Origin: Hygrocybe punicea | Taxonomy: Eukaryota > Basidiomycota > Agaricomycetes > Agaricales > Hygrophoraceae | Direction: 5' to 3' | Assembly: GCA_963556145.1 (NCBI GenBank) | Contig: OY744462.1 | Coordinates: 4,340,001-4,404,000, forward strand | Length of the DNA stretch: 64,000 nucleotides | In this document: positions 2,032-53,626 of the stretch, one piece after another | How the letters are laid out: each line of letters starts with the position of its first letter | Numbering within the stretch: position 1 is the stretch's first letter | Position numbers and translations under genes: made by a program | The notes under the pieces: model-generated | What the model saw: only the letters and a program-made list of their open reading frames with translations | Told to the model about the DNA's origin: nothing | Database searches by the model: none

Positions 2032-2224
2032 GAAGAAAAAAATGGATATTACATGTAAATACTAGTAGAAATGTGACTGGGTCACGGATGTGACAGACTG
2101 TCGATGAAGTGCTGCGGAATGGTCCATTGCTGCGCAGTGTGAGCTCGCCGTCAACGACGACACTCTCTGGCTCGCAGTGCGCAGTATACAATCCAATATC
2201 CCCCCTTTCTTCCTCCCAGTCGCA

Positions 2225-5200
2225 ATGCACCTCGATTCTCCCTCTGATCCACCAAAACCACCCAGGAAACTCAAGGAACGCGATCCTCTCCACAGAGACC
2301 CTGCCCCCACGGATATCGCAGAGAGAATGATTGCAATGCAGCGCAGGAATGCAGTGTGCGCCAATTCCTTTCCGTCCTTCATTATCTTCCTGACCACCTC
2401 CTACAGCGCAAACCGTCCAAGGGAACGTGCGGACCGCCTCACCCGCTCCCCAGAGAAGTCTCCCAACCCAACACCACCCTCATCTGCCACCAGAATACCC
2501 CCAACATCTCCCCGCAAACAGCACCCGCACTCCCATGTCATCCTCCCCCGAACCGAAGCAGACCCCGACGACTTCTCCCGCCGCCTCAAAATCTCTACGT
2601 CCCCGAGCCCACGCACATCGCCCCAGTCTAAGGCCCCAAACGTCAAGCTCTTCAACCATGAGACAGACCCGATACCGATGCGTCACACCGTCGAACCAGA
2701 GTCCGTCTCCGACACCGCCAGCAACTCTTACCTCCCACGTGGCCCTCCCCACAGTGCTGCCCGCGATCCCCACTCCCGCCAGCTCTTTGATCACCGCAAG
2801 CACGATCCAGTGCGCTTCGCTGTCCTCGCACGCCCGCACGGTCGCCCGACCCCCACCCCCAAGTCCTCTGCAGACTACGTCTCCGCCTCTTCCACTTCCT
2901 CGTACGGCAACTCCGTTACCTCTTCCAACTTCACCCTCTCCTCGAACACGGACGATTCATCGGCATCCTCTGCCTTGTTCGAACGGCAGGGCAGGCCGAA
3001 TGAGGATCCTGGGAACAACGTGTTCGCTATCCAACTCAAGAAACTTTATCGCACCATCTCCTCCCTGGAAGACAAGGTGAAACAACATGATGCAGATGAG
3101 ATGGCAGAGGATGGCAGGATTATGCTCCAAGTCGAAAACAACGACGATCTGGAAAAGGAAAAGTGGAAGAAACAAATCGTCAACTACAAAAGGTGAGCGT
3201 CTCACCCCGTCGCGTGCTCCTCAACTTATCCAATATTAACTCTTTCTCCCAGACTCGCCGAACTCATACACAACCTGCTCGAAATCTCCCTTGCTCCTAG
3301 TGTCCCCGCCTCCCTCCGGAATATCCCCACAAAATACAACATCATTATCCGCCTTTGGACCTACGCTTTCCACAAGCCTCTGGAATCCCTCCGCCGCGCC
3401 TCCTTCACATCCCTGCTTGCCTTCGAACACCTCCAGGACTTTATCTACTATGCCTACACTTTTTATACCGGACTCCTCGAGGAACCCACCCTCAGTACCT
3501 TCAAGGGCGGTTGGCTCGAGGCTCTCGGTGACCTCGCACGCTATAGAATGGCCGTGGCCGCCATGGTCACTGGTACCATTGGCAGTGGACCCGCGCTTAC
3601 TACTGATGCGGTCTCTTTGGCGGCGGCGGCAGCTGCTGCCGATGGCGCCCTACAACCGACCACCTCTGACTCGGACTCCAAATCCGTCAGTGATGCGCCT
3701 GCTGACCGCGTCAACGAGTCGCCTTCGCCGAGCGTCGGTGTCGCCGCGGCGCGATTGCTTGATATCGAACCAGAGAAGGAGCGTTGGCGGGGGATCGCGC
3801 GAGACTGGTATGGAGCTGGATTGGCCGATACACCTGGGACGGGAAAGCTGCACCACCACCTAGGGCTATTAAGTCGCGAGGTCGAGGGCGAAGAATTGCG
3901 GGGGATCTACCACTTCATCAAAAGGTGTGGTGATTTTCATCTCTTTCTTTCTTGAAGGGACTGAATCTCTTCTCTAGTTTGACGACGCTCCATCCGTTCA
4001 CGACATCCCGAGAGTCTATCCTACCTTTATGGTCAGCATCCGCACAGGCGAGGCGAATGCTCCCTGATGCACGTGCCCCTGACCTTTTCGTGCTGCTGCA
4101 CGGCATGCTCTTCACTAACATTCAGCTGGATGACTTCCAGCCCACCCTCGCACGCTTTGTCGAACGGCTCGAGATTGAGGGTGCAGAGGAACGGGAGTGG
4201 GTCATGATGGCCGTGGTCAACATCAGCGCCGTGCTCGAGTACGGCAAGCCAGGGGGTGTTGTGAAGAAACAAGGAGGCGTTGGTGGAAGGGAGTCCACGA
4301 CTGGACCCACAGGGATGCGCGTGATGGCGAAGCGCGGAGCCTTGGATGATGAGAAGATGGATGTTGACGAACAGCGTAGTGAGTACGAGCCGAAGCTTGC
4401 GCCCCATGTCACCGCCATTCAGACGTCCCCCGTCCTCGCGAACGCCCTCGCAGAGGCCGGGCCAGCGCCTCCTGCGCCGTTCAAACTTGCGCTGCAACTC
4501 ACATTCGCAATGTTGACCCACGTACTGCGCTGCCCAACGCGACAGGCATTACCCGTCGCACATGCAGTGCTGAACCCGTACCTGACGGTGCTGCTGACTT
4601 TCCTTGCAACTGTGTTACGGCATGCCGCTACACTCGAGATTCTTGAACGTGCCGTTCCGTGGGAAGAGCTCGCACAATTCTTTTCGCGTGTACCGCGGAA
4701 CGTGATGGCATCACAGGGCCTTGTGCTCGGGCAGCCACAGACGCAGGCGCCGGGTGAGCGCTGGACTATGCTCACAAGTGCATGTGCGCCACCACTACCA
4801 GAAGACTGGTGTATGCGTGGGATGGAGTGGGTTGGGCGGCGGGTGTATGAGCGTGGGTTCTGGAAGATCGCTGAGGATAGACGGCCGGAGCTTGAGGTGC
4901 TTGATAAGAGTGAAGCGAGGGAGATGGCTGACGGAATTATCGAAGATGGAGACGAAGACGAAGAGGGTAAGAAAAAAGGAATTTGGGGGGAGAATACCCG
5001 GCGGTGGGTGAGGGTTTTGAGGTGTGCGGTTGGGCTTGCCGGCGCTGTAAATGGGTTCACTTGGATGGAGGGCACGCGAGAGTGGAAAGTCGAGGGGGAA
5101 CTGGAGGCGAAAGTGAAGCGTTGGCGAAGAGAGGACAGGATTGAACGTGAAGAAGAGGAGAAACGACGGATGGGCAGGAGGTGGTCGGATGATTCAATGG

Positions 5201-6045
5201 ATGTGGATGAGGAGGATTGTGTGGACGATGACACATCGGAGAGTGAGGATGATGATGATTCCGAGGATGTCAAGGCTCTAAAGGTATGTCGTTACCGTTC
5301 CTCGTTCACAACAGTTGCAGACTCTTCATGAAGGCAAGGCGACGCTATCTGCGGAGTCTGTTGCAGACTGCCCAACACGACTCCATGGCTTTTTCACCAC
5401 CATCGCGCCGGGTCCGGCCACGAAAACCGCGCAAAGAAGGTCTCACCCGACCGTCACTGTCAATCATTGCGGGCTACACTGTTCTTGTCGTCGACACTAA
5501 TATCCTCCTTTCCTCCCTATCCATGTTTGCTTCCGTTGTCAAAAGCCTCCGCTGGACTGTCGTTGTGCCGTTGCCCGTCATTATGGAGCTTGATGGTCTT
5601 GCTATCAACACAACGCAGCTGGGTGAAGCCGCCCAAGGTGCACTGGCGTACATCACCTCGCACGTGCGATCACACTCCGCTTCCCTCAAGGTGCAGACGT
5701 CCAAGGGCAACTATCTGACGACGCTGAGTGTTCGCGCGGAGCAAGTTGATTTTGATGATGGGAAGTCGCGCGAGCGGAACATGGACGACTTGATCCTGAA
5801 GGCGGCGATTTGGCAAGATGAGCATTGGATCGATCGGTCTGCGATGCTCAATGATGATGGAGCCACGAAGGATACGACGCACGCCGAGAAGGTCGTTCTG
5901 CTCAGTCTGGACCGAAATTGTGAGTTCATAGTTGATGATAGGTATCTTTGTTGAAAGAATTCTAGTGCGTCTGAAGGCTCGGTCGAGACAGCTTCCTGCT
6001 GCAAGCGAGAAGGACCTGGCTTCTATTCTCGCGGCAGGAACCTGA
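2225..6045 (+). CDS. EST1/SMG6-like protein with C-terminal PIN domain
   Basis: Probable fungal EST1A/SMG6-family protein, acting in nonsense-mediated mRNA decay and/or telomere maintenance. Exons: 2225-3192, 3253-3924, 3978-5283, 5334-5919, 5966-6045; about 1,203 residues. A Ser/Pro-rich N-terminal region is followed by the 14-3-3/TPR-like EST1 region (from about residue 260) and the EST1 DNA/RNA-binding-like block containing GTGKLHHHLGLLSRE and FTTSRESILPLWS. An acidic linker leads to a PIN domain with VVDTNILL, VIMELDGL, MDDLIL and LLSLDRN, which supply the four acidic positions expected of an active nuclease. The last intron, 5920-5965, restores LRLKARSRQL after DRN. Intron 5284-5333 ends in AAG, the only acceptor in correct phase. 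An extra in-frame intron (2356-2406, GTGCGC...CTACAG) is possible and would remove 17 hydrophobic residues. The alternative is a SMG5-like role, but the intact acidic residues favour SMG6. Confidence 0.85.
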
Positions 6046-13523: not shown

Positions 13524-16500
13524 CTAGGGAACAACCTCCTCATCACGAGTCGCGTCTGGGTCAGCCTCCTGGCCAATCCTCTCTGGATCCAAACTAGGCT
13601 CATTGGTGTCGGTGCTGCGCGGTCGAATGCTCTCGGCATGCGCCAACCTGGTGCCTGCCCTGGGCTCGAAGGTTCGAAGTCGGCGGGCGTTGAAGGTACC
13701 TGGTAGGGCAATGCCCTCCAGAGTTTCCAGGGAGTAGGAATTGCGTATTCGGGCTACGATGCGGTGGGGTACGGACCAGCGTGGTAGTAGTTTGCGTTCA
13801 CTAGAGTAGACATTGATCAGGTCACTGCGATATACTTGTACTAGCTGGCCAGATTTAAATATAACTTCTCTGGGGGCGTGTTGGAGGACCCTGGCGTCGA
13901 AAATTGCCTTGCGGTTTGCTGCGTGGTCCACGGCGCAAGCGTGACCGTCTAACCGCTGTTGCTCCGCGTAAGCGAGGTGAATTGCTATTGCAGTGTCTGT
14001 GGGTAGTGGGGTGGCTTCGGGGTCGTCTGGGGCTCGGGAGTTCACTGCTAAACCGAATAGTAACTCATTCGGGGAAAATTATAGTGATGGAAGGATTCTA
14101 TCAGATAAAGCTTTCACCACAGCATCCAAATGTTGGGGCCAATTTTTTGGGATGTTGTTGACGGCCATTAGCTCATACTCATCCTCTCCGAGTCCGGGAG
14201 CGCACAGTCGTTTAAGGGTGTTCAGGAGTATCTTGTTTGATCCTTCTATGAGTCCGTTGATCCAGGGGGAGTACGCGGCTACGACATGGTGTTTAGTTCG
14301 GACACTAGCACAGTAGTTTCGCACCACGTCGCAGTCAAAGTGGGAACCTCCGTCGGTCATGAATACCGTGGGTGCGACGAATGCATTGCTGATTCGTTCC
14401 AAGCTTTCCACGGTGGCTTTTCCCGTGGTGGATTTGATCTTGAACGCGAATAGTTTCCTGGAGAATACGTCAGCGTAGAGGCCTATCTTTGTGTACCCAC
14501 CCTTTCCCGTCGGCATAGAGGTGTAGTCGCCTACGAGCAGCTCGAAAGGCTGGCTCCTGACGATTGGTCGGAGTAGGGCGTGGACGTGGGTGGTCCCGAA
14601 GTTCTTGCACCGCCCGCACTGGCGTATCGCCGTTGTTATTGATGCGTCGAGGAATGGGGTGCATATTTTGTCCAACAGCTGCATTTTGATTAAGTCACGT
14701 CCCATGTGGGTTTTGTCGTGCTCCAATTTGGCGAGCGCTGTCGCCTCCGCTTTGGTGACGCACTCTCGGCGTGGTGTGGCCCTCGCGGGTGTGGGGTTGC
14801 CCAGCTTCCACAGGCGTCCCTCCTCAATGAAGAAGTCTCTTGCTCGGTGGGTCGCGCGTCGTTTGTCACGCTCAGATGGGTTGTCGGGGTTGTCGAGTAA
14901 GGCATCTATGATCTCGACGAACACGAGTTCGTCTTGGAAGCGGTTGCGTAGCGATTGGTGGGTGTCTGGGGTGGCATCAGTTAACGTGAAGAGGTCGTAG
15001 GCGAGGCCGCGTGAGACCTCCCAGTCTGGTGAAACAGACCAGCTGCTCCCGTCCCCCGGTATCCTCGGGAGCTCTTCGTCTTTGCGGCTGAGTGCATCGC
15101 CCACGAGGTTCACTCTGCCCGGAATGTGGCGGACGTCGGTTATCTGGTGGGCTAGCACCCCGTCTCTCCAGCGTGCGTGGGTAGCGTTAAGGTCAGTGCT
15201 GTTTAGAACGTCACGCAGGGCCTGGCAATCCGTCTCCAGTTCGACGGGGAACCCCCAAATGATGTTGTCAAATTTGTCCAGCGCAAACTTGAGGGCCGCA
15301 AATTCGAGCAGGAATGGCTTGTAGCGTTCTTCAGCGGTGGAGGTGCATTTAGAGGCGTATGCGATGGGGTGTAGGCTTGTTATTACTTTGCCACCGGGTC
15401 GTGTTACGCTCATCCTCTGGGAGAGGACTGCTCCGAAACCCTCTTTGCAGCCGTCCGTCGTGACGATGAAGGGCGTTCCGTCGAACCGCGGCGCTGAGAG
15501 AACTGGGTTAGTGGTGAGGACTGTCTTCAAGTCGAGAAAACACTTCTTGTGTTTTTCGGTCCATCTATTGGCAAGCTTGACGCCTCTCAGCGCTGCGCGA
15601 TATGCTGATTTCCCGGCGTTTTTTGGTATGTCGGCGGAGCGTAGGAGGTCGGACAGTGGCTGCGCGAGCTTGGCGTAGCCCTGAATGAGATCTCTGAAGT
15701 ATCCCGTTAAGCCGAGGAAGCTGGAGAGGGCGAGAAGGTCCGGTGGTGCCCTCCAATCGACCACGGCGGTGACCTTGGTCTCGTCGGCTTGGACACCGTC
15801 GGGTCCGACTTTGGATCCTGCAAATATAATTTCTGTCATGAAGAATTTTGACTTTTTCGCTGATAGGGATAGGCCTGTCTCGCGGACCCTTTGAAAGAAG
15901 CGCCGTGTGCGCTCTAGCATCTCGTCGAAGTCATCCCCAGCTGTTCCGCCATTGTCCACGAAAAGTTCGAGCTGCAAAGTTGTGAGTATGTCTCCGAGGG
16001 CCTGGGCTGTGGTGTGTGCAAAGGTTGAGGGGGCGCCGGTGAGGCCGAAGGGCATCCATTTTTGTGTGAAGAAGCCGCGACCTTTGATGTAGAATGCTAA
16101 ATACGGCCTGCTTTCCTGAGGGATGACGACTGCGTAGAAGCCCGACGCGAAGTCGAAGCCATGCACCCACCTGTGTCCACTTAGGCGTTGCTGTTTTGCG
16201 CGGATGTCGCCCTGCGGCATCGGAAACACTTCCGTTACATTGTTTAGTGCTTTGTAGTTTTGGCAGAACCGCCACTTCGCGGGTTTTGTGGTTTCCGGGG
16301 GTGGTGTTTCGGGTGGCTGTCGTGGCTCTAGGTTGTGCGGTGGTGGGAATCCGTGGGCGGCGCATTCCTCGTTGACCCGGTACTGCAGTTCCTCCATTGG
16401 GAGTCCTGGGCCATCGTGGGCTTTGTGTCCCAGGACGATGGGTGAGGCGCATTTCACGTCCTCCGGTCGTATTGGTTCTATGATGTCGGCGGCCAACAAC

Positions 16501-17400
16501 TCGTCTATGGTTTTGTTGAGGAACTCGCGTTGTGCTACGTTGAACTGCCGCTGTCGAGGTACCCGTTTTGGGAACACTGTGTTGGGAGGTATGTGTATTC
16601 GGTGTTCAGCGCCGGGGACAGGGCTCACCTCGCTCACGGATAGAGCGAAACAGTCCGCGAACTCGCGAAGCAGGTCTTCCGTTTGTGTTCGTTGGGTGGG
16701 GGTGAGGTCGTGTCCGAGTTTAACGTTGGCCAGTACTGCTTCGACGCGCTCTTTCTTGAATGGGTGAGTTTTCCTGGTGAAGATTGATTTATCTGCGTCC
16801 AAGTCGACCTCCGGTTGCATGTCTCCAATGTTGTCGTCGTCCTGTTGGCAGTGTTCCTGGGTAGTATAGATCGGTTGGCTTGGTACTGGCTTGGGCGGGC
16901 GTTCGGGCATCATGTGGGTTGTGGTCTGTGGCGGTGCGTGGTCAAACGAGGTGGTTCTTCTGCGTCGGTCGCGGCGTCCCTTGCGGCGGCTCGTCCGTTC
17001 CTGAGTTTTCTCAACGCCGTCTATGTCGCATTCGAGCTGTGCGGTTCTCGATGGGCCAGCCGGGTGTCTCGGCATGCGGTATCCTTGGAGTTCGGGTGGT
17101 AGGTATGCGGACCTGTTGTTTGCCCGATCGAGCGTTTCGCCCAGGATCGTATCCTCGAGTCTGGCGAGCGGAGCGAACGCGTTGTGGGAACGGGTATGTG
17201 TTTTTCCTTCTTTACTGGGCGGTTCGTCGTTCACTAGGCTGGTGGGTATTTGTGGGTATCCGTGTTCGCGGCGCCAAGATAGGCCGACCCCTGCGGCGAT
17301 TGGTCTCGGTGTTAGGGCTGCTGCTTGAAGGGTGTCGCTTAGTGTCGTTGTAGCTGGGTGGGTTGGGGGTGGTTGGGGGTCATCGTTGGTGTTGTTGTCG
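13524..17400 (-). pseudogene. Gypsy-2 pol: RT, RNase H, integrase and C-terminal tail
   Basis: Long minus-strand frame with RT, RNase H and integrase in order. RT: HRIHIPPNTVFPKRVPRQRQF, KWRFCQNYKALNNVT, MPFGLTGAPSTFAHT. The position of the catalytic FVDD reads FVDN (codon at 15951-15953), so the second metal-binding Asp is Asn. RNase H: VTTDGCKEGFGAVLSQ, ELETDCQAL and GDALSR. Integrase: H-H-C-C finger (HDKTHMGRDL...CGRC) and catalytic GDY, TDGG and INGLIEGSNK. A TAA at 14079-14081 interrupts the frame, which continues (FSPNELLFGLAVNS) to 13524 with a chromo/SH3-like tail. Upstream, the frame is cut at 17400 by the palindromic element; residues NTNDD on this side join KKILNDN at 24481. Confidence 0.92.
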
Positions 17401-17700
17401 CAGTAGACCCAGTCGTTTTGGTTAACCCAATCGCAGATATAGTTGCAAAAGGTAGGTACACATAGCGCAGTTGCTTGCTGGGGGGGTAGGTTAACCCAAG
17501 AGACAGCTCTTGCTGGGGAAATGTGGGGTGGTAGGTTGACCCAGGTACAGCTCTTGCTGGTCAAGGTTGGCAGGGTGGGTCAACCCAGTGTCAGCTCTGC
17601 CATGGGGTAGGTTAACCCAGGACAGCTATTCTGGGAAGGTTGGGTTGACCCAGGTCCAGCTGTGCAAGCAACGTGGGTTGACCTGGGTTGACCGTGGACC
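17401..17700. repeat. Outer terminal inverted repeat, left
   Basis: Nearly identical in reverse complement to 24181-24480. Contains several GGTTAACCC/GGTTGACCC motifs that recur as the core of the internal 34-bp repeats, suggesting graded subterminal protein-binding sites. Confidence 0.85.
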
Positions 17701-18840
17701 AGCTCTTGCTGCAGGCTTGGGTTGACCTGGGTCCAGCTGTTGCTGCAGCACTGGGTTGACCCAGGCCCAGCACTTCCTGCAGGGTGGGGTGGCTGGGGTC
17801 CAGGTATTGCTGCAGCACCGGGTTTACCAGGGTTCAGCTATTGCTGCAGCACTGGGTTGACCGGGGTCCAGATATTGCTGTGGCACCAGGTTGACCCAGA
17901 TCCAGCACTTGCTGCAGGGCTTGGGTTGACCTGGGTCCAGCTATTGCTGCAGCACTGGGTTGATCTGGTTCCAGCACTTGCTTTGGGGCTTGGGTTGACC
18001 TGGGTCCAGCTCTCCCTGCAGGCTTGGGTTGACCAGGGTCCAGCTATTGCTGCAGCACTGGGTTGACCAGGGTTCAGGTATTGCTGCAGCACTGGGTTGA
18101 CCGGGGTCCAGCTATTGCTGCAGGACCGGGTTGACCTGGGTCCAGCACTTGCTGCAGCACAGGGTTGACCTGGGTCCAGCTATTGCTGCGGCACCGGGTT
18201 GACCGGGGTCCAGATATTGCTGCAGCACTGGGTTGACCCAGATCCAGCACTCGCTGCCGGGCTGGGGTTGACCAGGGTCTAGATATTGCTGCAGCACCAG
18301 GTTGACCGGGGTCCAGCACTTGCTGTGGGGCTTGGGTTGACCCAGGTCCAGCTCTTCCTGCAGGCTTGGGTTGACCTGAGTCCAGCTATTGCTGCAGCAC
18401 TGGGTTGACCAGGGTCCAGATATTGCTGCAGCACTGGGTTGACCCAGATCCAGCACTCGCTGCAGGGCTGGGGTTGACTGGGGTCTAGATATTGCTGCAG
18501 CACTGGGTTGACCTTGGTCCAGCACTTGCTGCAGCACTGGGTTGACCAGGGTTCAGCTATTGCTGCAGCACTGGGTTGACCAGGGTCCAGCACTTGCTGC
18601 AGCACTGGGTTGACCAGGGTTCAGCTATTGCTGCAGCACCAGGTTGACTGGGGTCCAGCACTTGCTGCGGGGGTTGGGTTGACCCAGGTCCCACTCTTCC
18701 TGCAGGCTTGGGTTGACCGGGCTCCAGCTATTGCTGCAGCACTGGGTTGACCTGGGTCCAGCACTTGCTGCAGGGCTTGTGTTGACCAGGGTCCAGCTCT
18801 TGCTGCAGCACTTTGTTGACCCACATCCAGCACTCACTGT
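17700..18840. repeat. 34-bp subterminal tandem repeat array, left
   Basis: Repeated unit of 34 bp: TGGGTTGACC, a variable base, GGGTCCAGC, then ACTT or TATT, then GCTGCAGCAC. About 33 units judged from array length. Unit variants (GGTCCAGATATTGCTGCAGC, GGTTCAGCTATTGCTGCAGC, CTTCCTGCAGG) occur in higher-order blocks. All reading frames stay open through long stretches because 34-bp units cycle frames; they are not genes. Confidence 0.9.
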
Positions 18841-19079
18841 AGGGTAGGTTGATTGGGGTCCAGCCTGTCCTGTAGCATTGCATTGACCCCAGACCCACCC
18901 ATGTCACAGGTTTGGATTCATGAGGGTCTGGCCATTGCTCCAGCATTGGGTTGACATGGCCCTGCTCTTGCTGCAGAATAAGGTTGACCCTGGCCCAGCT
19001 CTCACTGCAGGATTAGGTTGACCAGGAGCCCGCTTTTGCTTTGACATGGGCCCAGCCACATCCCACTCTGCCTGCATGT

Positions 19080-19495
19080 ATTTAATGTTGACAACATTGC
19101 CAGAGCTCACAACAACTCAAGCCAATATTTATTCAGAACCTGCCATATATATAAAGTAATCAAAATGTTTCAATCTGTACTTCACATAAATGTATGATGT
19201 AATATAATTTGAATGCAATTATTAATAGCACAGGGAATAGCAAAATTACACAATTATTATTTTGACACTGCACAATATCTTACTTTTACTATCAGCCATC
19301 AGCCATTACAGGAGCTACTTATCCCCAATGCCAATCTATGGCAAAACCAGAAATTACCCCACTTGGAATATTGTGCTTTTCTATTTAATATTGCTCAATT
19401 CTCTATTGGAATCAATATATATAACCTTACTATTACTTAAAATAGACACATACATTTAATGATTATTAAAATACATAATTAAATAGTAAAGGGCA
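19080..19495. other. AT-rich inner arm of the palindrome, left
   Basis: AT-rich, non-coding. Aligns in reverse complement with about 22,065-22,440, sharing blocks such as AACTCAAGCCAATATTTATT, CAGAAATTACCCCACTTGGA and ACATAATTAAATA. The level of mismatch is much higher than in the outer arms. Confidence 0.7.
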
Positions 19496-19498
19496 GGA

Positions 19499-20220
19499 GG
19501 CAGGTGAGAGGAAGGTGGGTGTGGACTGGGAGGAAGGGTGTGGGTGTGGGAGGAAGGTGGGTGTGGGTGTGGGAGGAAGGTGGGTGTGGAGTGGGAGGAA
19601 GGTGGGTGTGGGAGTGGGAGGAAGGTGGGTGTGGAGTGGGAGGAAGGTGGGTGTGGAGTGGGAGGAAGGTGGGAGTGGGAGTGGAGGAAGGTGGGAGTGG
19701 GAGAAGGGAGTGGGAGTGGGAGAAGTGGGAAGGTGGGAAGGCAGGAGGCAAGGGCAGCAGGGAGAGGGAGAGGGAGAGGGAGAGGGAGAGGGAGAGGGAG
19801 GAGGAGAGGGAGGAGGAGAGGGAGGAGGAGTGGGCGGAGAGTGGGATGTACGTACCCGTTGCGTTCCCCTCGTCCTCGTCGTCTTCGTCTACGTCTCCGT
19901 CGTCCCCGTCCCCGCCGTCCCCGTCCCCGTCGTCCCCGTCCCCATCGTCCCCGTCTCCACGTTCCGGTCCCTGTCGTTCCCGTTCCCGTCGTTCCCCTCG
20001 TCGTCGTCATCGTCCTCGTTGTCGTCGTCATCCCCCGTAGTCCTCGTTGTCCGCTGGATCGTCGTCGTCGTCTCCCTCGTCCTGTCGTCTCCGTCGTCCT
20101 GTTGTCCTCTCGCTGGCCGTCTCCGTCCCGTCGTCGTCCCCTGGCTGGCCGTCTCTGCCCTCGTCGTCTCTGTCCTCGTCGTTGCCGCTGTGGTTGTCTC
20201 GGACGTCTGTCTCGGTCGTT
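19499..20220. repeat. G-rich minisatellite and GTC/CGT-rich microsatellite, left arm
   Basis: First a G-rich tract (19499-19845) built from GGTGGGTGTGGGAGGAA-like units with many GGG runs. Then a pyrimidine tract (about 19860-20220) built from CGTCGTCCCCGT-like units. The long Arg/Thr/Pro-rich frames here on both strands are products of the low-complexity DNA. The mirrored versions lie at 21530-22060 in the other arm. Confidence 0.8.
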
Positions 20221-20229
20221 GGCGCATCC

Positions 20230-20611
20230 TCGTACCCGGCCTCGCGGCCTCGTTTCCGTGGCCGTTTTCATCGGCATCCGTTCTGTTTGCTGGGGTGGCC
20301 GTGGCGTTGTTTTCTGGGCTGGTGTTGGGTTCGCCTGTGTTTGTCGTGGGTGTAGCTGCAATCATTATAAACATTAGCATACAACTCACAAAAAATTCAA
20401 AAAAGACATTACCTTGGGTGCTCTTCTGCACCCGTTTCCTGTTGTTGACGCGTTCCTGTTGTTGACGCGTTGTTGAAAACGAGTCGTTTGAAGTCGCGTG
20501 AAAGCCAACCGGCAGTTGCCGATTTCCCAAACGGGTTCGAGTTGCCCAACACGGATGTGTGGCTGAAGCTTTTGAATCTTCTGGCATGCACAACAATGCA
20601 TGCATACCCAA
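20230..20611 (-). pseudogene. Coding-like remnant in left inner arm (ATRTRLGNRQ peptide)
   Basis: Minus-strand translation of 20385-20611 includes ATRTRLGNRQLPVGF followed by a Gln/Arg/Asn-rich stretch. The mirror region at 21240-21375 encodes ATRTRLGNRQPPACV. Conservation of this peptide while the surrounding DNA has diverged suggests a former gene in each half. GT and AG sites (ACC|TTACC near 20412 in reverse) would allow splicing into the acidic, Arg/Thr-rich frame that follows. No known domain. Confidence 0.35.
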
Positions 20612-20639
20612 AGTCAGATCCTCAAAAGATGTAAATATA

Positions 20640-21235
20640 GTATACCTACCCTCATGTCAAATTTTGTATTTTATTCGGCCCTGCGTAAAGAGCTATTCAC
20701 CATTTATTCCATTCCTCTGCCAGAATTGGACCCTTAATGATCTAACTTTGTCTTAAAAATCTGAAATTAATCTAAGGAGTACTTGAAGAAGTACTCATTG
20801 TGGTACACATAAGTGCCTGATTGTTGGTGGACCAGGACCTTTGTTGCAGCCAAGCAAATGCACAGAATTGTGCATTGTGGCTGACCCATCAACCGAGTCC
20901 AAACTTCAGCTTTACTCTGAACCTTTCATTTCTTGGCTACAACAGATTTCTGGGACCACCAAGTGCCAGGCACTGATCATCAATACAATAGATACTTTAC
21001 ATAGTAGTTTCACAATTATTTTCATATTTTTCAGAGCAATATTGGTAAAGTTGCACTTTAAGGGTCTGAAATTGGCAGGGAGGTATCAATGAATCATAAA
21101 TATCTCTCTATGTAGGGCATAATAAAATACAAAATTTGGGGAGGATGTAGTTATAGGCTACTTCTATCCCCTCATGGTCTTAAATGTGTTACAAAGTTGT
21201 TGTGCTCTATGCAATAACATTGAGAAAAGTCAGAT
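20640..21235. other. Apex of the palindrome
   Basis: The two half-units meet here, around 20,890. Short blocks such as AAATTTTGTATTTTATT, AAGTGCC and GCAGCCAAG/CTTGGCTACAAC pair across the apex, with many mismatches and indels. No gene and no unique spacer is apparent. Confidence 0.6.
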
Positions 21236-21239
21236 CATG

Positions 21240-21669
21240 CTTACATATAAGGCAACTCGCACCCGTTTGGGCAATCGGCAACCTCCAGCGTGCGTTCAAT
21301 CGTCGGCGATTCGTCGCGTACTCCACGATGCGTCCACGAAAACAGCAGCAGCAAAATCAAGTAGAAGGTAAGTAGATTTCTCAAATTTATTATCCATTAC
21401 TATGCTAGCTAATATTGTTGTTTTTATGTAGAACTTTCTCATTGCCGTGCCGGGAATGGACCGCAACACGCTTGCCCGCGCCACGTCACGTCAACGCCAA
21501 ACTGAAGGGCCGAAACGGCGGATGGCAGGCAACGACGAGGACAGAGGCGATGAGGGCACAGACGGCCAGCCAGGGAAGACGACGGGGACGGAGACGGCCA
21601 GCGAAGAGACGACAGGACGACGGAGACGACGACGACGATCCAGCGGACGACGAGGACTACGGGGGATGA
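21240..21669 (+). pseudogene. Coding-like remnant in right inner arm (ATRTRLGNRQ peptide)
   Basis: Plus-strand mirror of the left remnant. ATRTRLGNRQPPACV is followed by MRPRKQQQQNQVE and a clean GTAAGT...TGTAG intron-like segment (about 21368-21430). Beyond it a low-complexity frame reads GDEGTDGQ or DDGDDDDDPADDEDYGG depending on frame. Suggests a two-exon gene with an acidic tail that degenerated separately in each half. Function unknown. Confidence 0.35.
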
Positions 21670-22060
21670 TGACGACAACGAGGACGATGACGACAACGAG
21701 AGGAACGACGAGAACGGGAACGACAGGGACCAGAACGGCGGGGACGGGGACGACGGGGACGAGGACGGCGGAGACGTAGACGAAGACGACGAGGGCAACG
21801 GGAACGCAACAGGTATGTACATCCCACCCCTCCGCCCTCGTCTCCTCCCTCTTCCTCTGCCTCTCCCACTCCCACTCCCTGCTGCCCCTCCCTCCTCCCT
21901 TCCATCCTGCCCTTCACCCTCCCTTCTCCCACTCCCACTCCCACTCCGTTCGCCCACACCCACACCCATACCCATACCCACACCCACACCCACACCCACT
22001 TCCAGTCCCAGTCCCAGTCCCAGTCCCAGTCCCACTCACACCTACCTTCCTCCCCCCCAA
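21530..22060. repeat. Microsatellite and C-rich minisatellite, right arm
   Basis: Reverse-complement counterpart of 19499-20220: GACGACGAGGAC-like units, then CTCCC/CCCACACCCA-like units (about 21825-22060). Shorter than the left counterpart, so both tracts have changed copy number. Confidence 0.8.
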
Positions 22061-22699
22061 CCCCTTTATTATTTAATTATGTATTTGGATAAAATAATAA
22101 TTAATTTGATATGTCCATTCTAAGTAATAGTGAGTGTTTGTGTACTGATTCCAATTGAGATTTGAGTAATATTAAATAAAAAAGGCACAAAATTCCAAGT
22201 GGGGTAATTTCTGGTTGTTATATATATAAATTTTGTTTGGGAATAAGTAGCTCATGTGAGAGATAAAGCTAAGAGTGAGAGATTGTGCATTTTCAAAATA
22301 AGAATGTTGTAATTTTGGTATTACCTGTGCTTTGAATTATTGCATTTGAAATTATATTACATTTGAAGAAACTGAGACGTTTTCTTTACCGGATATTGCA
22401 TTTTCTGAATAAATATTGGCTTGAGTTGTTGTGAGCTCTGGCAATGTTGTCAACATTAAATACATGCAGGCAGAGTGGGATGTGGCTGAGCCCGTGTCAA
22501 AGCAAAAGCGGGATCCTGGTCAACCTAATCCTGCAGTGAGAGCTGGGCCAGGGTCAACCTTATTCTGCAGCAAGAGCAGGGCCATGTCAACCCAATGCTG
22601 GAGCAATGGCCAGACCCTCATGAATCCAAACCTGCGACATGGGTGGGTCTGGGGTCAATGCAATGCTACAGGACAGGCTGGACCCCAATCAACCTACCC

Positions 22700-24190
22700 T
22701 ACAGTGAGTGCTGGATGTGGGTCAACAAAGTGCTGCAGCAAGAGCTGGACCCTGGTCAACACAAGCCCTGCAGCAAGTGCTGGACCCAGGTCAACCCAGT
22801 GCTGCAGCAATAGCTGGAGCCCGGTCAACCCAAGCCTGCAGGAAGAGTGGGACCTGGGTCAACCCAAGCCCCGCAGCAAGTGCTGGACCCCGGTCAACCT
22901 GGTGCTGCAGCAATATCTAGACCCTGGTCAACCCCAGCCCGGCAGCGAGTGCTGGATCTGGGTCAACCCAGTGCTGCAGCAATATCTGGACCCCGGTCAA
23001 CCCGGTGCAGCAGCAATAGCTGGACCCAGGTCAACCCTGTGCTGCAGCAAGTGCTGGACCCAGGTCAACCCAGTGCTGCAGCAAGTGCTGGACCCAGGTC
23101 AACCCAGTGCTGCAGCAATATCTGGACCCTGGTCAACCTGGTGCTGCAGCAATAGCTGGACCCAGGTCAACCCAAACCTGCAGGAAGAGCTGGACCTGGG
23201 TCAACCCCAGCCCTGCAGCGAGTGCTGGATCCAGGTCAACCCGGTGTTGCAGCAATATCTGGACCCCGGTCAACCCAGTGCTGCAGCAATACCTGGACCC
23301 AGGTCAACCCAAGCCTGCAGGAAGAGCCAGACCTGGGTCAACCCAACCCCCGCAGCAAGTGCTGGACCCCAGTCAACCTGGTGCTGCAGCAATAGCTGAA
23401 CCCTGGTCAACCCAGTGCTGCAGCAAGTGCTGGACCCTAGTCAACCCAGTGCTGCAGCAAGTGCTGGACCCTGGTCAACCCAGTGCTGCAGCAATAGCTG
23501 AACCCTGGTCAACCCAGTGCTGCAGCAAGTGCTGGACCCCGGTCAACCCAGTGCTGCAGCAAGTGCTGGACCAAGGTCAACCCAGTGCTGCAGCAATATC
23601 TAGACCCCAGTCAACCCTAGCCCTGCAGCGAGTGCTGGATCTGGGTCAACCCAGTGCTGCAGCAATATCTGGACCCCGGTCAACCCGGTGCAGCAGCAAT
23701 AGCTGGACCCAGGTCTCCCTGTGCTGCAGCAAGTGCTGGACCCAGGTCAACCCGGTCCTGCAGCAATAGCTGGACCCCGGTCAACCCAGTGCTGCAGCAA
23801 TACCTGAACCCTGGTCAACCCAGTGCTGCAGCAATAGCTGGACCCTGGTCAACCCAAGCCTGCAGGGAGAGCTGGACCCAGGTCAACCCAAGCCCCAAAG
23901 CAAGTGCTGGAACCAGATCAACCCAGTGCTGCAGCAATAGCTGGACCCAGGTCAACCCAAGCCCTGCAGCAAGTGCTGGATCTGGGTCAACCTGGTGCCA
24001 CAGCAATATCTGGACCCCGGTCAACCCAGTGCTGCAGCAATAGCTGAACCCTGGTAAACCCGGTGCTGCAGCAATACCTGGACCCCAGCCACCCCACCCT
24101 GCAGGAAGTGCTGGGCCTAGGTCAACCCAGTGCTGCAGCAACAGCTGGACCCAGGTCAACCCAAGCCTGCAGCAAGAGCTGGTCCACGGT
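22700..24190. repeat. 34-bp subterminal tandem repeat array, right
   Basis: Inverted counterpart of the left array, roughly 44 units by length, so about ten units (some 350 bp) longer. Individual variant units keep the same order near the outer end, while the inner part has extra blocks. This indicates expansion or contraction after the arms were formed. Confidence 0.88.
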
Positions 24191-24480
24191 CAACCCAGGT
24201 CAACCCACGTTGCTTGCACAGCTGGACCTGGGTCAACCCAACCTTCCCAGAATAGCTGTCCTGGGTTAACCTACCCCATGGCAGAGCTGACACTGGGTTG
24301 ACCCACCCTGCCAACCTTGACCAGCAAGAGCTGTACCTGGGTCAACCTACCACCCCACATTTCCCCAGCAAGAGCTGTCTCTTGGGTTAACCTACCCCCC
24401 CAGCAAGCAACTGCGCTATGTGTACCTACCTTTTGCAACTATATCTGCGATTGGGTTAACCAAAACGACTGGGTCTACTG
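24181..24480. repeat. Outer terminal inverted repeat, right
   Basis: Reverse complement of 17401-17700 with very few mismatches (for example CCTAGG for CCCAGG near 24118, just inside). Ends GACTGGGTCTACTG directly before GTTGTCG. Confidence 0.85.
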
Positions 24481-25105
24481 GTTGTCGTTTAGTATCTTCT
24501 TCCAGCCGCCATTGTGTGGTACGCTCAGCGTGTCGTCTTCGTAGTTATGGATGGCCCTATATTGCTGGAGCAACGGCTTCCCAAATAGGAGTGACCAATT
24601 GCCTCCGCTTGGGAATACCTCGAACGTAGCGCGTCTGTGCAGTCCGTCGAGGTCTACGTCGCCGGTCCATTGGCCCTGCGATGGTATTTTGGCTCCGTTT
24701 GCCATACGTAGCGTCATGCGCGATGGGAACAGTGCGCCGAGCCGATCTCTGTACTTTTTGTATGTTGACGTGCACATGGAGTTTACCATGGCCCCGTTGT
24801 CGAACAGACTTTTTATTCTGTAAGGAATTCCTTGTGGGCCTCGGAGGCTTATTGGGTGGATGAATGGTTTCGCTGGTAGAGCGTCTCTCTCAATCACATA
24901 CGGGTCAATGGTCTCGTGTTTGGGTATATGGTACACGGTGTTCGTACTGACTAGGGGGTCTGTGTCCGTATGCGCAGTTGTATTGAGGGGGCTCATCCGT
25001 GTGTCCCCGACCCATCCCGTACTTTGGTCGGGGACCTGCATGTCCACCTGGTGATTTTGTTGGGCCGCCCGACTTTCGTCTATGCGGACGGCCCTTCGCC
25101 ATTTC
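24481..25105 (-). pseudogene. Gypsy-2 protease region (start of pol)
   Basis: Minus-strand frame, open from about 25,105 through MDMQVPDQ, to the insertion point of the palindromic element at 24481. A retropepsin-like segment IKSLFDNGAMVNSMCTS is followed by ATFEVFPSGG and LLFGKPLLQQY, the flap and C-terminal strand of LTR-element proteases. The frame is -1 relative to gag and overlaps the gag stop, suggesting -1 frameshifting for pol expression. The sequence after KKILNDN continues at 17400. Confidence 0.75.
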
Positions 25106-39924: not shown

Positions 39925-40643
39925 AGCTTGAAGAAAATGTTAGTAAACAAAGCCAGCCACAATTTTGCTAAGTCCGATTATAGAGTACTTGTACAAAATA
40001 CAATTCACACTGTCTAACACAATCCATCCCTTCAGTTAATGAGCTCTGGGAAACAATTATAGAAGCTCTGGATCAGAACCGACAGTGATTTGTAGGCCAA
40101 TTTGCTTTCAGAGATGGCACAGTCCTAATCAGTAATTAAATAATTGATAAAGCATGTGCATCTTGTTTTACTGCTGCTGCACTGTTATTTTATTATCCTG
40201 GACTCCTGTACATGTACCCTAGTGGTTGAGGTCACTGCTGCTGTATTTTTCAGAGTCCTAGTTAAGTAATACATGGAAGTGTGCAAATTATGCTGGTGAC
40301 TATGTCAGTTTAGACAGGTTCTGCTTCCATAAACCTCACCTCAACCACTAGGGTACATGTACAGGAGTCCAGGATGATAAAATAACAGTGCAGCAGCAGT
40401 AAAACAAGATGCATATGCTTTATCAATTATTTAATTACTGATTAGGACTGTGCCATCTCTGAAAGCAAATTGGCCTACAAATCACTGTCAGTTCTGATCC
40501 AGAGCTTCTATAATTGTTTCCCAGAGCTCATTAACTGAAGGGATGGATTGTGTTAGACAGTGTGAATTGTATTTTGCACAAGTACTCTATAATCGGACTT
40601 AGCAAAATTGTGGCTGGCTTTGTTTACTAACATTTTCTTCAGC
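39925..40643. repeat. Foldback element 2, 305-bp arms
   Basis: Left arm 39925-40232 and right arm 40338-40643 are inverted copies with only a few mismatches (for example AACCGACAG versus AACTGACAG); a loop of about 105 bp separates them. Motifs: TAAGTCCGATTATAGAGTAC and GGACTCCTGTACATGTACCC. No coding capacity. Confidence 0.88.
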
Positions 40644-40787: not shown

Positions 40788-41158
40788 TAGTGTTGCCACA
40801 GCTATAGCCGATGTTTTTTGAAAAATTGCCTTTTTAGGCTAGTAAAATTAGGCAAAATTATGAAAATATTTGAGGAGATGGGCGAAGCCAAAAGCTGGGG
40901 GGTCACTTAAGGGTGCTAAGGATTTGGGGCTCAATTCTCAGGGTTCTTCAGGGATAGCTGTTGGATGGTAGCTAGCTAGGCTCAACAGCTATGGTTGAAT
41001 AACTCTGAAGATTGGGCACCAAATTCTTAGCACCCTTAAGTGACCCCCCAGCTTTTGGCTTCGCCCATCTCCTCAAATATTTTCATAATTTTGCCTAATT
41101 TTACTAGCCTAAAAAGGCAATTTTTCAAAAAACATCGGCTATAGCCGTGGCAACACTA
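40788..41158. repeat. Foldback/MITE element 3 with TA ends
   Basis: 371 bp. Termini TAGTGTTGCCAC and GTGGCAACACTA. Inverted arms of about 130 bp each (40790-40920 and 41026-41156) are nearly perfect. If TA is the target duplication, the element is GTGTTGCC...GGCAACAC, which would fit a Tc1/mariner-type MITE. Confidence 0.85.
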
Positions 41159-45788: not shown

Positions 45789-47730
45789 CTAATGGGGAGC
45801 GTTCTCATCATTGACATTGACATCTTGGGCTTGACAGCGTAAGGTGGGCTTGAGCTGGGCAATTTTTTGCTGGACAGCGATGGGAAGATGAGATGGCGTA
45901 GTGTTGGTGGTGGTGGCCGATTGGAGTGGACCCTCATGGTGGGATTTCAAGTCAGGACTGGCTGGCGAAATTGCTGTATCAGACGTCATCAGGAGGTGAG
46001 GAGTAGGTGATTGGCGGAATGCATACGTGCGCCTCGGTGCACGTGCAGGTGCAGGAAGCTTCTGCTTGATAGAACACTCACTATTGTCATCTGTAGCCTC
46101 GTTGTCAGTTATCCACGTAACTGAGCCACCACCTTCTGGGTAGTGAACCTCGTTTCGGATCTTATGCTTGGGCCTTTGGTCAACGGAGTGAACACGGCCC
46201 CTTGGTGTCTCCATGCCCATGCCCATGCCCCTGCCCATACCCATCTCGAGTTTAATGTGAGCCATATCGCGTGCACAGTCGGCCTCATAGACACGACCCT
46301 GTAGAGTAGTGATCTGCATGCGAAGGGACTCGATGACAGCTTGAGAATCACGATTTTGTTGAGCGCTTGCGAAAATTTGAGCACTTTGCAGGGTGCGCTG
46401 GGATCGTTCCTGTTCACAAGACTCCTGCGCTGCTGGATCAAAAGCAGCAGAGATCTTTTGTACAAAGTCTAACCCAGCACCCCCACAAGCATTGCAGTGG
46501 ATGGGGGGTTGGTCACGTATCCCTCGAACGACAGCCACTTTGGCAGGAACCTGTGTGACTTTATTGTCGGTGCTGATAGTGATGGCACTTTCATAGCCAT
46601 GGTCCTCGTCCATGTCATTGCCAAAGTCAGAGTCATTCAGCTCACGTGTACCTGCCCTCTCGTTTATCAAGACATCAATCGCATGTGCACGATCAATGTG
46701 TGGTGGGCAGGTGCCACGGCCGGTGGGCTTTGTTGTCCTCATGAGCTGGTGGACGATCATAATGAGTTAATAACCATCATCAATACATTAGTGAAGTGTG
46801 TACCTGCTTGAACTTCGTCTCTAAGGACTTTTGGGCCCTCTGCGGGCGACCCTGCCTTTGACACCATTTGGTAAACTGCACATGGACGGCCTTCCAGCCG
46901 TGTTGTCCCAATGGTAACTCAAGCTCAACGTGGTCCAGGAGTGCCTTCATGTCGTCAAGTTTGTAGTTACCAGCACCTTGAGGGCGGCCGATTCATTTAG
47001 GCATTCGTGGGTCATCGTCTCCATCACCATGGCCCTTGCACTTCTGTGGTCGATCTCTCTCAAGCTTGGCACGAAATCTAGGCTTCCGATCTAAGTCCAG
47101 CTCCTGCTTAATTCTGAGCATCGGGGCTGGCTTTCTTGGTTTGGCAGCATGTACTGATGATCACACAAGATCGCGGGCATCGACCAGCTCCTCGTCATCA
47201 GAGTCGTCACGGGGACAGAGGCCCATAGGTACTTGATGATGCAGTGGCGGCAACGCAGGGAGGTGTGAGTTGGGGTGTCCCTTGTGAGTGAGCATGAGCT
47301 GCCCAGGCCCTGATTCGTGTAAATAGTCCTGTCACAAATGCGTAAGCAGCAACGACTATTTAAAACAGTAGAGTGACTCGGACCTCATATTGGTCCACCG
47401 CAATTACAGGCGCTCCAGTAATAGGCTCATGATCAAACTGGATGTCAAATGATCTTAGCAGTGTGCCAATAAACCCAAGCCATGAGTGTACCTTGTAAGG
47501 GGAAAAGCGATAATTGCCTGGTGCAATTGGCACAGAACCCTTGCCCTATAAAAAAAGATACACAACTTGTCAGGTGCCAAGACGCCGTGAGTCAGAAGTG
47601 TGATACTCACAACAGGGAGATTGTGTTGTGGAACTCCAGTGTATGGAATCCAGTGAGAAAACGGATCTTCCCCGACAGTGTGAGGAGGATGAGCATTGAC
47701 GAGAGGAAAATTAGGACATTGAGTCGACAT
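45789..47730 (-). pseudogene. Myb/DUF6818-type DNA-binding partner of the Harbinger-like element
   Basis: Minus-strand gene. Exons about 47730-47611, 47545-47492, a further exon about 47454-47383, 47328-46804 and 46745-45789. The conserved block GNYKLDDMKALLDHVELELP, QHGWKAVHVQFTKWCQRQGR, RAQKSLETKFKQ (then intron 46746-46803) and LMRTTKPTGRGTCPPHIDRA resembles the DUF6818/trihelix-like domain of mushroom proteins. A coiled-coil stretch and basic C-terminus follow. In-frame TGAs at 47161-47163 and 46993-46995 (before IGRPQGAGNY, where Arg is expected) kill it. Harbinger transposons need a Myb-like partner protein, which fits its position tail-to-tail with the transposase. The first exon is duplicated at 55596-55741. 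Confidence 0.72.
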
Positions 47731-48785
47731 GGGGAAGTTGGTATGCATACGTGAAGAAAGGAGGGTGCAGAGACTGGGGTAAAACAGTAGAATTGCGCCT
47801 TCTTATACTGTTGGCACTCAGGTACATGGACAACATAAGTCACTCGTTTACACTCAGAAATTGGCCATTCAATTTATCACGACATGGTGTGGAATGCCAC
47901 GAAATGCAATGATTGGCAGCTGTACTGTCAATAAGACTAGGAAGTACAGTTGGAAAGAAAAAAGTTGAGTACCCAACTCACCTCATAGCAGTGATGCGCT
48001 GATGACTTCGAAAAAAGGTATGCTGAACTGCTTTCGTTGTCGAGTCCCTTGTTAAAGGTAGACAGGATGAGAGTGAATGGAGAGTAGGACGTCGGAGATG
48101 GTAATATTGCAGCATGAAACGCAGTGACCAGCCATAATGCTATAGCGAGGGCCAGTAAGTACAATTAGAATAAAATGTGTACCTAACTCCCCCCGTAGCA
48201 GTGATGCACCCAAGACTTCAAAAAATCCCATGCTGAAGTGCCTTCATCATTGAGTCCCTTGTCAAAAACAAATGGGAAGTGGGAGTAGGAGATCGGGAGG
48301 GGTAGTAATTAGTGGAACAAGCCGGGTCTAGCGAAAGTGAATTCAAGTCAGACATACTAGGGGTCAGATGGATGCGTGGGCAAGACAATGGTCGAGAGGG
48401 CTGGCTAGACAAACAGTCAGTGTGAAAGCTTGTACGGCGGGGCTGGATTAGGACAGGCGACTGGCCAGAAACGGAATGCAAGAAACTCAGGATAAGTTGT
48501 TTATTCAAGACGGGGGGTTTGGATCCCTCATCTAGGCTAGTGGTTATTGCGAGGTTGAGAATAATCTACATTTTATGGCGGGACCCTGAGCGACCCGACG
48601 TGTTGGCTGGGTTGCCTTTCGGGGTCGAATTTATGATAATATATGTTATGATGATGTATAAACGCCTACGGAAAGTCACCCAATCATCACTGGATTATGA
48701 ATGAGGCATATCTCATTTGGTGGCGAAAAAATCATCAGTCTGCTGTGCAATATCACGGCATTGCCAATACAAAACAGTTGTTGAT
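47731..48785. other. Spacer between Harbinger-like remnant and RBM5/10-like gene
   Basis: No recognised gene. Two imperfect direct repeats of about 100 bp (47975-48060 and 48180-48265: GTAGCAGTGATGC, GACTTC, TGCTGAA and GAGTCCCTTGT in the same order) lie about 205 bp apart. The right end of the Harbinger element should be here but was not located. Confidence 0.45.
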
Positions 48786-51689: not shown

Positions 51690-52445
51690 ATGATGATGGT
51701 TGGAAACAAGTTTTTTTTATGTAAACATTGTACAAACAATTCATCTGTCTCCACCTATTGACAAGACAAGCCCATGATGGCTGGCCATGGTACGCAGTAT
51801 CTACGCCCTTCCTCACCAGCTTGACGTTCATCCGGAAACCTAGGATTTATAAAAGTGCGCGATCAAGGAGATGCAAGATGTCCAGTGCTCACTTTGCATC
51901 GTTAGGTTGACCCAGCCATAGAACGATGGAACCATATGGTAACTTCATCCGCGCATAGTCATTCAGTCAAGCCTTTCATTTGTATCTCAGCGCGAGGATG
52001 TCTACAAGCATTTCCGATTCACTTCGCGCACCACTTGGATAGCGCTCTGTGGGTTTATATTTGTGCCTGGTGCCATTCTATACGTCTCAAACGTTACCGA
52101 TGTAGGCCAACCCACACATTGTCAGACTATGCTTACCTATTCCTGTTCCTCCTGTAGTTGAGATGGAGCTGGGCAGGGAAACTAAAGGGGCAGTCCTTGA
52201 CGATATGCCCTCGACCAGAATAAATAACTAGAATGTCATTTATTACTCTCAACTTTCAATTGAATTGCAAGACGGCATGACTACAATACAGAGTGTAAAG
52301 CAAGAGGCGCGGAACGAACGGTGGGTCGGGTATGACGATCGAGGATAACGGGAGAATGACAACACTTAGTCGAATTTCGCATCCAATGCCTCGCCATCTG
52401 ATCGTCTTCGAGGCCGAACTGCGAACATGGAGATACAAGCCACGA
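51690..52445. other. Spacer between RBM5/10-like start and ATG8 end
   Basis: Contains the RBM5/10-like promoter (minus strand) and ATG8 3' UTR. No further gene recognised. Confidence 0.5.
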
Positions 52446-53057
52446 TTATGCATGGAATGGTAGCTCGACCCATCCTTCCATCCCGAAAGTATTCTCGCCT
52501 GAATAACTGACGTAGAGGAAATTATCCTCATCTCTGGGTAATACCAGGGTCAATATCGGCGAAACATTTGCGAAAATGCGAGAAAGACCGACTTGTGCTC
52601 TTCGTAAATGGCACTCATCAAGGCTGCAGTCGGTGGCAGAACCTCGTCAACGAAGATGAATATTGCCTTCTCTGGTGCAAGCTTGATGCGTTTGCGGATT
52701 ACATAGACAAATTGGCCTACGGTTAAGTCCTAACCATATACAATTAATGCGCGTGATAAATTGATCTCAAAGCTACACTGTTTCGACGTACGGATGGAAC
52801 CAGGTATTTCTTTTTGTCGATCGTAGGGATATCTGTCCGGTCTGCCTTCTCGCAAATTACCTGAAATGGTTGTTTTGATCAGAGGGAATGGCTTTGGATA
52901 CGCAAATACTTACAGGGATGCGGTCAGGATACTTCTGGCGGATCCGCTCCGCCTCTGCCTTGCGTTTCTCTGCCAAGCAGCGGACGATGAGTAAGACAAA
53001 GAAGGACTGCGGAGTGCACGGACCAAAAGGATGTTCGTCCTTGAACTTAGATCTCAT
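52446..53057 (-). CDS. ATG8: Autophagy ubiquitin-like protein ATG8 (copy A)
   Basis: Ubiquitin-like modifier conjugated to phosphatidylethanolamine on autophagosome membranes. Exons: 53057-53024, 52969-52914, 52860-52792, 52729-52593, 52533-52446; 127 residues. The sequence follows the highly conserved family: [79 protein letters not shown]. Gly116 of TFG is the conjugation site; the 11 residues after it ([11 protein letters not shown]) would be removed by the ATG4 protease. All four introns are GT-AG. Confidence 0.97.
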
Positions 53058-53626
53058 AGTATATAGTATCCGGCGTGAGCGGTGGTCTTGTTGTGAACGT
53101 TGGAGACAAGGGGGAAGGAACCCAACTGGTGGCCAAAGCAGACGATTACCGCGAAGATAAATAAACCGGGGAAATGACTCGAGCAACAAGGCCAAACAAC
53201 TTAGCGTTTGGACAGACATTCAAGTATTTGTGAACTTCAGCTCCGTCGCTGTACATGTATACGGATTTTCTTTGACTACTACTACGTATACCGCTGCCGG
53301 TTGTCGAGTCACGCATGTACACTCAACGTGAATATTGCAAGTATGGGGCGAGACGATCTAAAAGGCTCAGATCTTAGACATGAAGGAGCAGCAATCATCA
53401 GGAAAATGGTAAGTGATGACCATGAACTTAGGATTGGCATTTTGAGTGTTGAGAAGCGACAGATCGTGCGGGATTGAAACGGCTGGAAGGTGAGAGGAAT
53501 TGGGCCAATAGGTTCCAAGGTACACCGCAACGACTATTATAATAATCAGAAATGGGATAGATGTGATTATAATGTCCCACGCCATGACAAGTAAAGAAGA
53601 TGCTCATGCAAACTATGGTGCAAGGA
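53058..53626. other. ATG8 promoter region and spacer to formin
   Basis: Upstream region of ATG8. A minus-strand frame at 53367-53585 starts with a strongly hydrophobic stretch (MAWDIIITSIPFLIIIIVVA) and could be a small membrane protein, but no family was recognised and no splice model completes it convincingly. Confidence 0.3.

Follow-up and report, generated by a model that had tools for sequence, protein, structure and literature searches.

The question raised by this locus is what kind of mobile element is palindromic over almost its entire length, and how its two halves came to match exactly at the ends and poorly at the centre. The locus lies in a 64,000-nucleotide stretch of the Hygrocybe punicea genome (assembly GCA_963556145.1, contig OY744462.1, positions 4,340,001 to 4,404,000), hereafter the window, in which an element of 7080 bp at 17401-24480 forms a near-complete inverted duplication. 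The comparisons indicate, at a probability of roughly 0.86, that the element is a non-autonomous foldback derivative of a KDZ (Kyakuja-Dileera-Zisupton) DNA transposon in the same genome. The assignment is built on direct observations of the ends, the target duplications, the copy number, the termini shared with KDZ-encoding elements, the apex phylogeny and the arm homogenisation in four diverged elements.

The element begins with CAGTAGACCC at 17401, ends with GGGTCTACTG at 24480 and is flanked on each side by GTTGTCG, a 7-bp target duplication. The left and right arms are exactly the same over the first 361 bp and have one mismatch in 764 bp of ungapped alignment; the original prediction, made from the sequence alone, described perfect ends and a near-perfect outer 300 bp, which understates the identity. 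Inward of the arm ends lie tandem repeats of ~34 bp, which are 93-96% identical where aligned and differ between the arms by insertions and deletions of whole units. Inward of these arrays, 542 bp are 98% identical between the arms (18607-19148 and 22393-22934), after which the halves diverge. Alignment up to an apex near 20,890, as predicted, is confirmed by apex halves that are 66.8% identical (20515-20860 vs. 21282-20927, E 2e-13), with ~66 bp at the centre (20861-20926) showing no alignment between the halves. Identity is thus uneven along the arms, and equal similarity along the whole length, the pattern named in advance as speaking against the prediction, was not observed. Foldback-type elements are characterized by long terminal inverted repeats (TIRs) of tandem subrepeats with little unique centre, here the 34-bp arrays and the ~66-bp apex spacer. 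The words GGTTGACC, GGTCAACC and GGTTAACC occur 78 times in the foldback arms, twice in the foldback interior and three times in the remaining 56,920 bp of the window; each of the seven KDZ arm pieces counted contains 3 to 31 of them. Within the window, the terminus was found at the two outer ends and nowhere else, the apex included, with up to three mismatches allowed. The features of the element and its insertion site are as follows.

14079..17400, minus strand: downstream part of the host Ty3/gypsy-type frame, with Pfam matches to reverse transcriptase, RNase H and integrase in that order; uninterrupted paralogues exist
17394..17400, unstranded: left copy of the target-site duplication GTTGTCG, a single copy of which is found at 18 uninterrupted paralogous sites
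17401..24480, unstranded: whole palindromic foldback element, 7080 bp
17401..19140, plus strand: left outer arm, probable KDZ-type TIR; first 361 bp the same as in the right arm, first 99 bp the same as in both ends of a KDZ element on contig C36
17684..18820, plus strand: ~34-bp subterminal repeat array with GGTTGACC, GGTCAACC and GGTTAACC words (36 words in the left 1740 bp)
19141..20860, minus strand: left inner half (L-type), comprising an AT-rich segment, a GC-rich tract of GAC triplets at ~19861-20340 and the apex segment
20861..20926, unstranded: unaligned apex spacer, ~66 bp
20927..22402, plus strand: right inner half (R-type), ~66-67% identical to the L-type at the apex, with a GC-rich tract at ~21439-21812
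22403..24480, minus strand: right outer arm, including a 34-bp array (42 words in its outermost 1740 bp)
24481..24487, unstranded: right copy of the target-site duplication GTTGTCG
24481..25047, minus strand: upstream part of the host frame, an open reading frame with no Pfam match on its own; uninterrupted paralogues exist

The frame split by the element encodes reverse transcriptase, RNase H and integrase domains (Pfam), in this order, presumably the Ty3/gypsy arrangement. A query representing the empty site, in which the two flanks were joined with one GTTGTCG, gave 36 matches. Eighteen of these cover the whole query across the joint, the best being 100% identical over 313 bp, and one covers positions 3-310. 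Two weak matches (67-69%) cross the joint over ~270 bases, two further matches are the window's own flanks, and the remainder cover one side only. The uninterrupted sites are paralogous copies of the host retroelement rather than allelic empty sites. With GTTGTCG present twice and 18 uninterrupted paralogues spanning the joint, the prediction that the element transposed as a unit into the gypsy frame holds.

The ends of KDZ transposons in the same genome carry the assignment. KDZ domains (PF18758) were matched 186 times in this genome, 150 of the 429 candidates having been scored, and not once in 14 control genomes. One match (C3:1422795) lies 2.3 kb from a foldback-type end. The element at this locus (L038) matches CxC2 (E=1.3e-35) and KDZ (E=3.3e-31), and one of its ends aligns with the foldback terminus (573 bp, 80%); no left end was located there. 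A search based on L038 gave relatives on C7, C36, C35, C39, C8 and other contigs. Two of them, at C7:5413909-5424580 (10,672 bp by coordinates) and C36:1185530-1195425 (9,896 bp by coordinates), carry the foldback terminus at both ends in inverted orientation and are flanked by 7-bp duplications (TTGGCAA and CACGTCA, respectively), each with a stop-free KDZ-domain match between the termini; the regions at both ends were read as sequence and the interiors are known from the KDZ-domain matches. A KDZ-domain transposase therefore lies between the same termini, both of which are present in the C7 and C36 relatives and one in L038. The terminal 180 bp are 97% identical between left and right in the C7 relative and 99% in the C36 relative, and those of the latter are 93-94% identical to the window element, the first 99 bp being exact. 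The inverted arms of the two relatives align over 949 columns at 84% (C7) and 844 columns at 91% (C36). The original prediction recognised no known family. That description is incomplete: no coding domain is recognisable in the element itself, but its termini belong to a KDZ family resident in this genome.

An unrelated KDZ family in this genome (L029) served as a yardstick. It has CA..TG ends and inverted subterminal arrays, and both copies read at both ends (L029 and a copy on C34) have 7-bp duplications, TCATGCA and CATTGTT. These three traits are common to the KDZ elements read here. As a partner of the foldback, the L029 family was rejected, having neither CAGTAGACC nor GGTCTACTG. The family is multicopy (L039, L033 and L029, the last at G000:C33:1960964-1973343), ~12.4 kb long by coordinates, with 7-bp duplications, CAGGGC..CTGGTG ends and inverted 45-bp subterminal arrays on both sides. 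L038 also has another gene-like region, at ~4016-4981 on the minus strand and oriented divergently to the KDZ gene; its two frames have no Pfam match.

Copies of the element were sought in the 92.2-Mb genome with the 28-bp end, allowing up to three mismatches. The search gave 351 matching ends (179 + 172), KDZ ends included, and none in a reversed-pattern control. Among 100 ends listed, 38 neighbouring facing pairs were found, 32 of them 4-11 kb apart (median ~7.3 kb). The central 1040 bp are matched at 99-100% in all 40 places scored of 447 candidates, the window's own included, and every one of the 40 also gives an inverted self-match of 64-67% (best E per place 1e-9 to 1e-14). Thus, the palindrome is neither chance nor a local assembly inversion. 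Twenty copies were fetched, 18 of which (all but L009 and L014) have both ends inside the locus. Perfect 7-bp duplications flank 17 of the 18, in addition to the window element. With 351 ends and these duplications, the assembly inversion artefact considered in the original prediction is not borne out. The element family is large, numbering over a hundred related copies, many of them recent.

The apex was compared between the main subfamily, to which the window element belongs, and five others (L028; L009/L010/L013; L019; L020; L022). Between the window and the other subfamilies, the L-type apex is 90-94% identical and the R-type apex 87-89%, whereas L and R inside one copy are 66-69% identical in the main alignments. 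An apex tree of 24 rows from 10 elements, two of them with two apices, separates the L and R types into two clades (100/100 support) across the six subfamilies. These two clades imply that one old head-to-head fusion or capture predates the sampled subfamilies, in line with the predicted joining of two related, diverged half-units. Both apex types are kept in 19 of the 20 fetched copies. A unique centre in other copies, which would have told against the prediction, was seen neither in the 40 scored core copies nor in the apex comparison; L016 is an apex deletion. This copy has lost most of its apex and still has a perfect duplication, so the apex is dispensable for transposition. Apex words (up to three mismatches) number 163 for L and 167 for R genome-wide, with none in controls. 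Pairing was counted for the listed sites on contigs C1-C34 (91 of 100 L and 99 of 100 R), among which 79 of the 91 L sites are paired head-to-head with an R site at a distance of 400-437 bp. The unpaired sites (12 of 91 L, 20 of 99 R) may partly reflect lists that hold perfect matches only. No complete single half-unit was found in this partial census of listed sites.

The arms showed a different relationship. Over an inner-arm segment of 216-333 columns, identity within the element is 1.000 in L019, 0.996 in L020, 1.000 in L022 and 1.000 in L028, vs. 0.790, 0.802, 0.850 and 0.861, respectively, for the best match to any other fetched element. Since the arms of these four diverged elements are far closer to each other than to the others, arms are homogenised within elements, and the predicted homogenisation of the outer ends is supported (99.6-100% vs. 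79-86%). The inner arms of L010 and L013 are 100% identical within each element and 99.7% to each other. The right inner-arm hit of L016 is an array and was left out. In the terminal 190 bp, L019, L020, L022 and L028 are again closer within than between elements, and most main-subfamily copies are identical both within and between elements.

These observations are consistent with the following mechanism. The outer 1.7-2.1 kb on each side would be a KDZ-type terminal repeat, whose tandem subterminal motif arrays may be transposase-binding sites. The interior would have been swapped once, long ago, for a head-to-head pair of related non-coding segments, and the resulting inverted repeat would span nearly the whole element. 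Mobilisation is proposed to occur in trans, because the element itself has no recognisable transposase: the KDZ transposase would recognise the CAGTAGACCC ends and the arrays. The unit probably moved by cut-and-paste, as the duplications and empty sites suggest, leaving 7-bp duplications. The arms would repeatedly exchange sequence with each other and, less certainly, with the ends of other elements. Exchange appears strongest towards the ends and might proceed by conversion or by template switching in gap repair, two candidates that the sequences do not separate. In this way the working ends would have stayed identical, or become so again, as the apex halves diverged.

Several observations weigh against derivation from a KDZ transposon or against parts of this mechanism. 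Eight interior frames (six from the window, one from L028 and one from L022) have no Pfam match at E<=0.05 and no KDZ match at E<=0.1; the only Pfam listing, PF11028 at E 0.061, is under its cut-off. When the interior halves were compared with the KDZ pieces (blastn), only array matches occurred among the 30 best hits, so these pieces do not account for the interior. One testable copy, L027, has no 7-bp duplication, its flanks being non-matching. In the 12 main-subfamily copies compared, the window included, the inner arms are 93.6-98.7% identical within elements, without recent homogenisation. Comparison of the better arm of each of these copies with the arms of other elements gives identities of 99.7% or more; because it matches other elements more closely than its own second arm, homogenisation in the main subfamily predates the spread of those copies. 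In the terminal 190 bp, L021 and L016 are closer to other elements than to their own second arm. Placement inside Kyakuja is unsettled because two Laccaria Kyakuja families are reported to have no TIRs (Kojima 2025, PMC12730594).

A true dimer, in which two complete half-size transposons of one family were joined head-to-head and moved as one composite, would account for halves that align up to the apex and end in the same terminus. However, the apex census of listed sites gave no complete half-unit, with a head-to-head partner at 79 of the 91 L sites, the terminus is confined within the window to the outer ends, and the KDZ relatives already carry long inverted arms around genes. A dimer is therefore an unlikely origin. 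The joining of two ~3.5-kb copies, as originally envisaged, is not needed because the arms are KDZ-type, the interior matches KDZ pieces only in the arrays and the apex lacks a terminus.

It is considerably less probable that another superfamily with 7-bp duplications (P/Galileo, hAT7 or MULE) mobilises the element and that the match to KDZ ends is accidental. Galileo, too, combines 7-bp duplications with long repetitive TIRs (PMC3573991), and hAT7 of Puccinia has 7-bp duplications (PMC12730594). However, the KDZ elements share hundreds of bp with the foldback, at C7 and C36 at both ends, and no site genome-wide combines the first 12 bp with a continuation that departs from the terminus at two set positions, 17 and 20, against 10 + 13 sites in the reversed-pattern control. 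The transposase associated with the shared ends is KDZ; no search of the genome was aimed at P, hAT or MULE families. Least probable of all is an autonomous element whose enzyme is coded in the GC-rich inner tracts, as possible exons that have GTATGT donors and lead away from the apex. The tracts do contain long stop-free frames. However, several of these overlap, are open on both strands, are low-complexity versions of GAC-type triplets and vary by eye between subfamilies, and the eight interior frames have no Pfam match over the curated cut-off. With such shifting frames, the inner tracts were rejected as exons.

A tentative extension of the KDZ derivation is that the foldbacks are end-swapping parasites, in which an ancient palindromic core changes its ends to follow the active KDZ lineage. 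If so, each arm could take over sequence from its partner arm or from a different element. The proposal fits the conflict between the apex and terminus trees. In the terminus tree, L028 and L010 fall together with L022, the main subfamily and the KDZ lineage of C36/C35 (98/95), whereas the R-apex tree groups them with L019 and L020 (99/98). Enforcing the opposite grouping was rejected at p-AU 6e-5 for the termini and at a weaker 0.029 for the R-apex, the groups having been named after the trees were seen. Weighing on the proposal, the L-apex tree leaves the grouping of L028 and L010 undecided, and neither L019 nor L020 is firmly attached to the KDZ ends of C7/C3.

Foldback (FB) elements have long TIRs of tandem repeats around a small centre, as does the element here. 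FB, Tetris and Tm1 foldback elements belong to other transposase lineages and hosts. Among documented cases, Galileo of Drosophila comes closest, and the element is best read as its fungal counterpart. Galileo has 7-bp duplications, repetitive TIRs, gene-less copies of two TIRs, recombinant TIRs (2RT), TIRs lengthened by recruited internal sequence and chimeric copies with non-matching flanks (PMC3573991). The two share the 7-bp duplications, long internally repetitive TIRs and gene-less copies that are mostly TIR, and the chimeric copies recall L027, which recombination between two copies may have produced, as described for Galileo. They differ in that Galileo has a P-superfamily transposase in Drosophila, whereas the element here is associated with KDZ in a fungus and has an interior palindrome of one old origin, common to the six sampled subfamilies.

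Within KDZ, Kyakuja elements of Agaricomycotina have 7-bp duplications and 5'-CA..TG-3' termini (PMC12730594). Both traits occur here, the duplications at the window element, 17 of 18 copies and the C7 and C36 relatives, and the transposase is likewise KDZ. In contrast to the Laccaria families, inverted arms are present, ~0.8-0.95 kb long in the two KDZ elements read; those of the foldback measure 1.7-2.1 kb. Cryptococcus KDZ1-3 also combine a KDZ transposase with a CxC cluster and TIRs in ~9-11 kb (PMC12810828). However, their TIRs are short (139-241 bp), their duplications are 8 bp (KDZ1) or 4-8 bp (KDZ2 and KDZ3), and the available parts of that paper describe no foldback derivative. No KDZ-borne foldback turned up in the literature searched, which mostly excluded subscription journals, and an earlier report is possible. 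The KDZ derivation would extend the foldback architecture to this superfamily, and a plausible autonomous partner is present alongside the element in this genome. It would also agree with the Galileo authors, who propose convergent origins of long repetitive TIRs in separate superfamilies. Many recent copies and older subfamilies in one genome would permit direct measurement of the rate and reach of arm-to-arm conversion.

Individual copies showed further variation. In L023, a 92-bp tandem duplication of the left end is present at 201-292, and the target duplication matches at the outer copy. At terminal positions 14-15, many ends have CA or TG rather than CG, the pattern expected from CpG decay or RIP-like mutation. 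In L022, two extra interior stretches (2086-3133 and 4052-5784) without match to the window element flank the conserved apex. All five copies with two apices (L009, L010, L012, L013 and L014) contain a 100-N gap, and the doubled apices may for this reason be a scaffolding artefact. Spans of >10 kb between matching ends were rejected as autonomous elements after mid-stretches had been read in three of the six listed. The mid-stretches of L030 and L032 gave no foldback match and no transposase recognised by eye; since apex words occur elsewhere in both spans, they are likely insertions into foldbacks. In L031 (G000:C6:1674000-1682000), an LTR-type (long terminal repeat) pair 4938 bp apart lies beside foldback arm sequence, likely a nested insertion.

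Elsewhere in the window, 47585-55395 and 55596-63406 form an exact direct duplication of 7811 bp astride a 200-N gap, which resembles a duplication introduced by assembly where scaffolds were joined. A 371-bp segment (40788-41158) is 92% identical to its own reverse complement, and a 304-bp inverted pair at 98.7% identity lies at 39929-40641.

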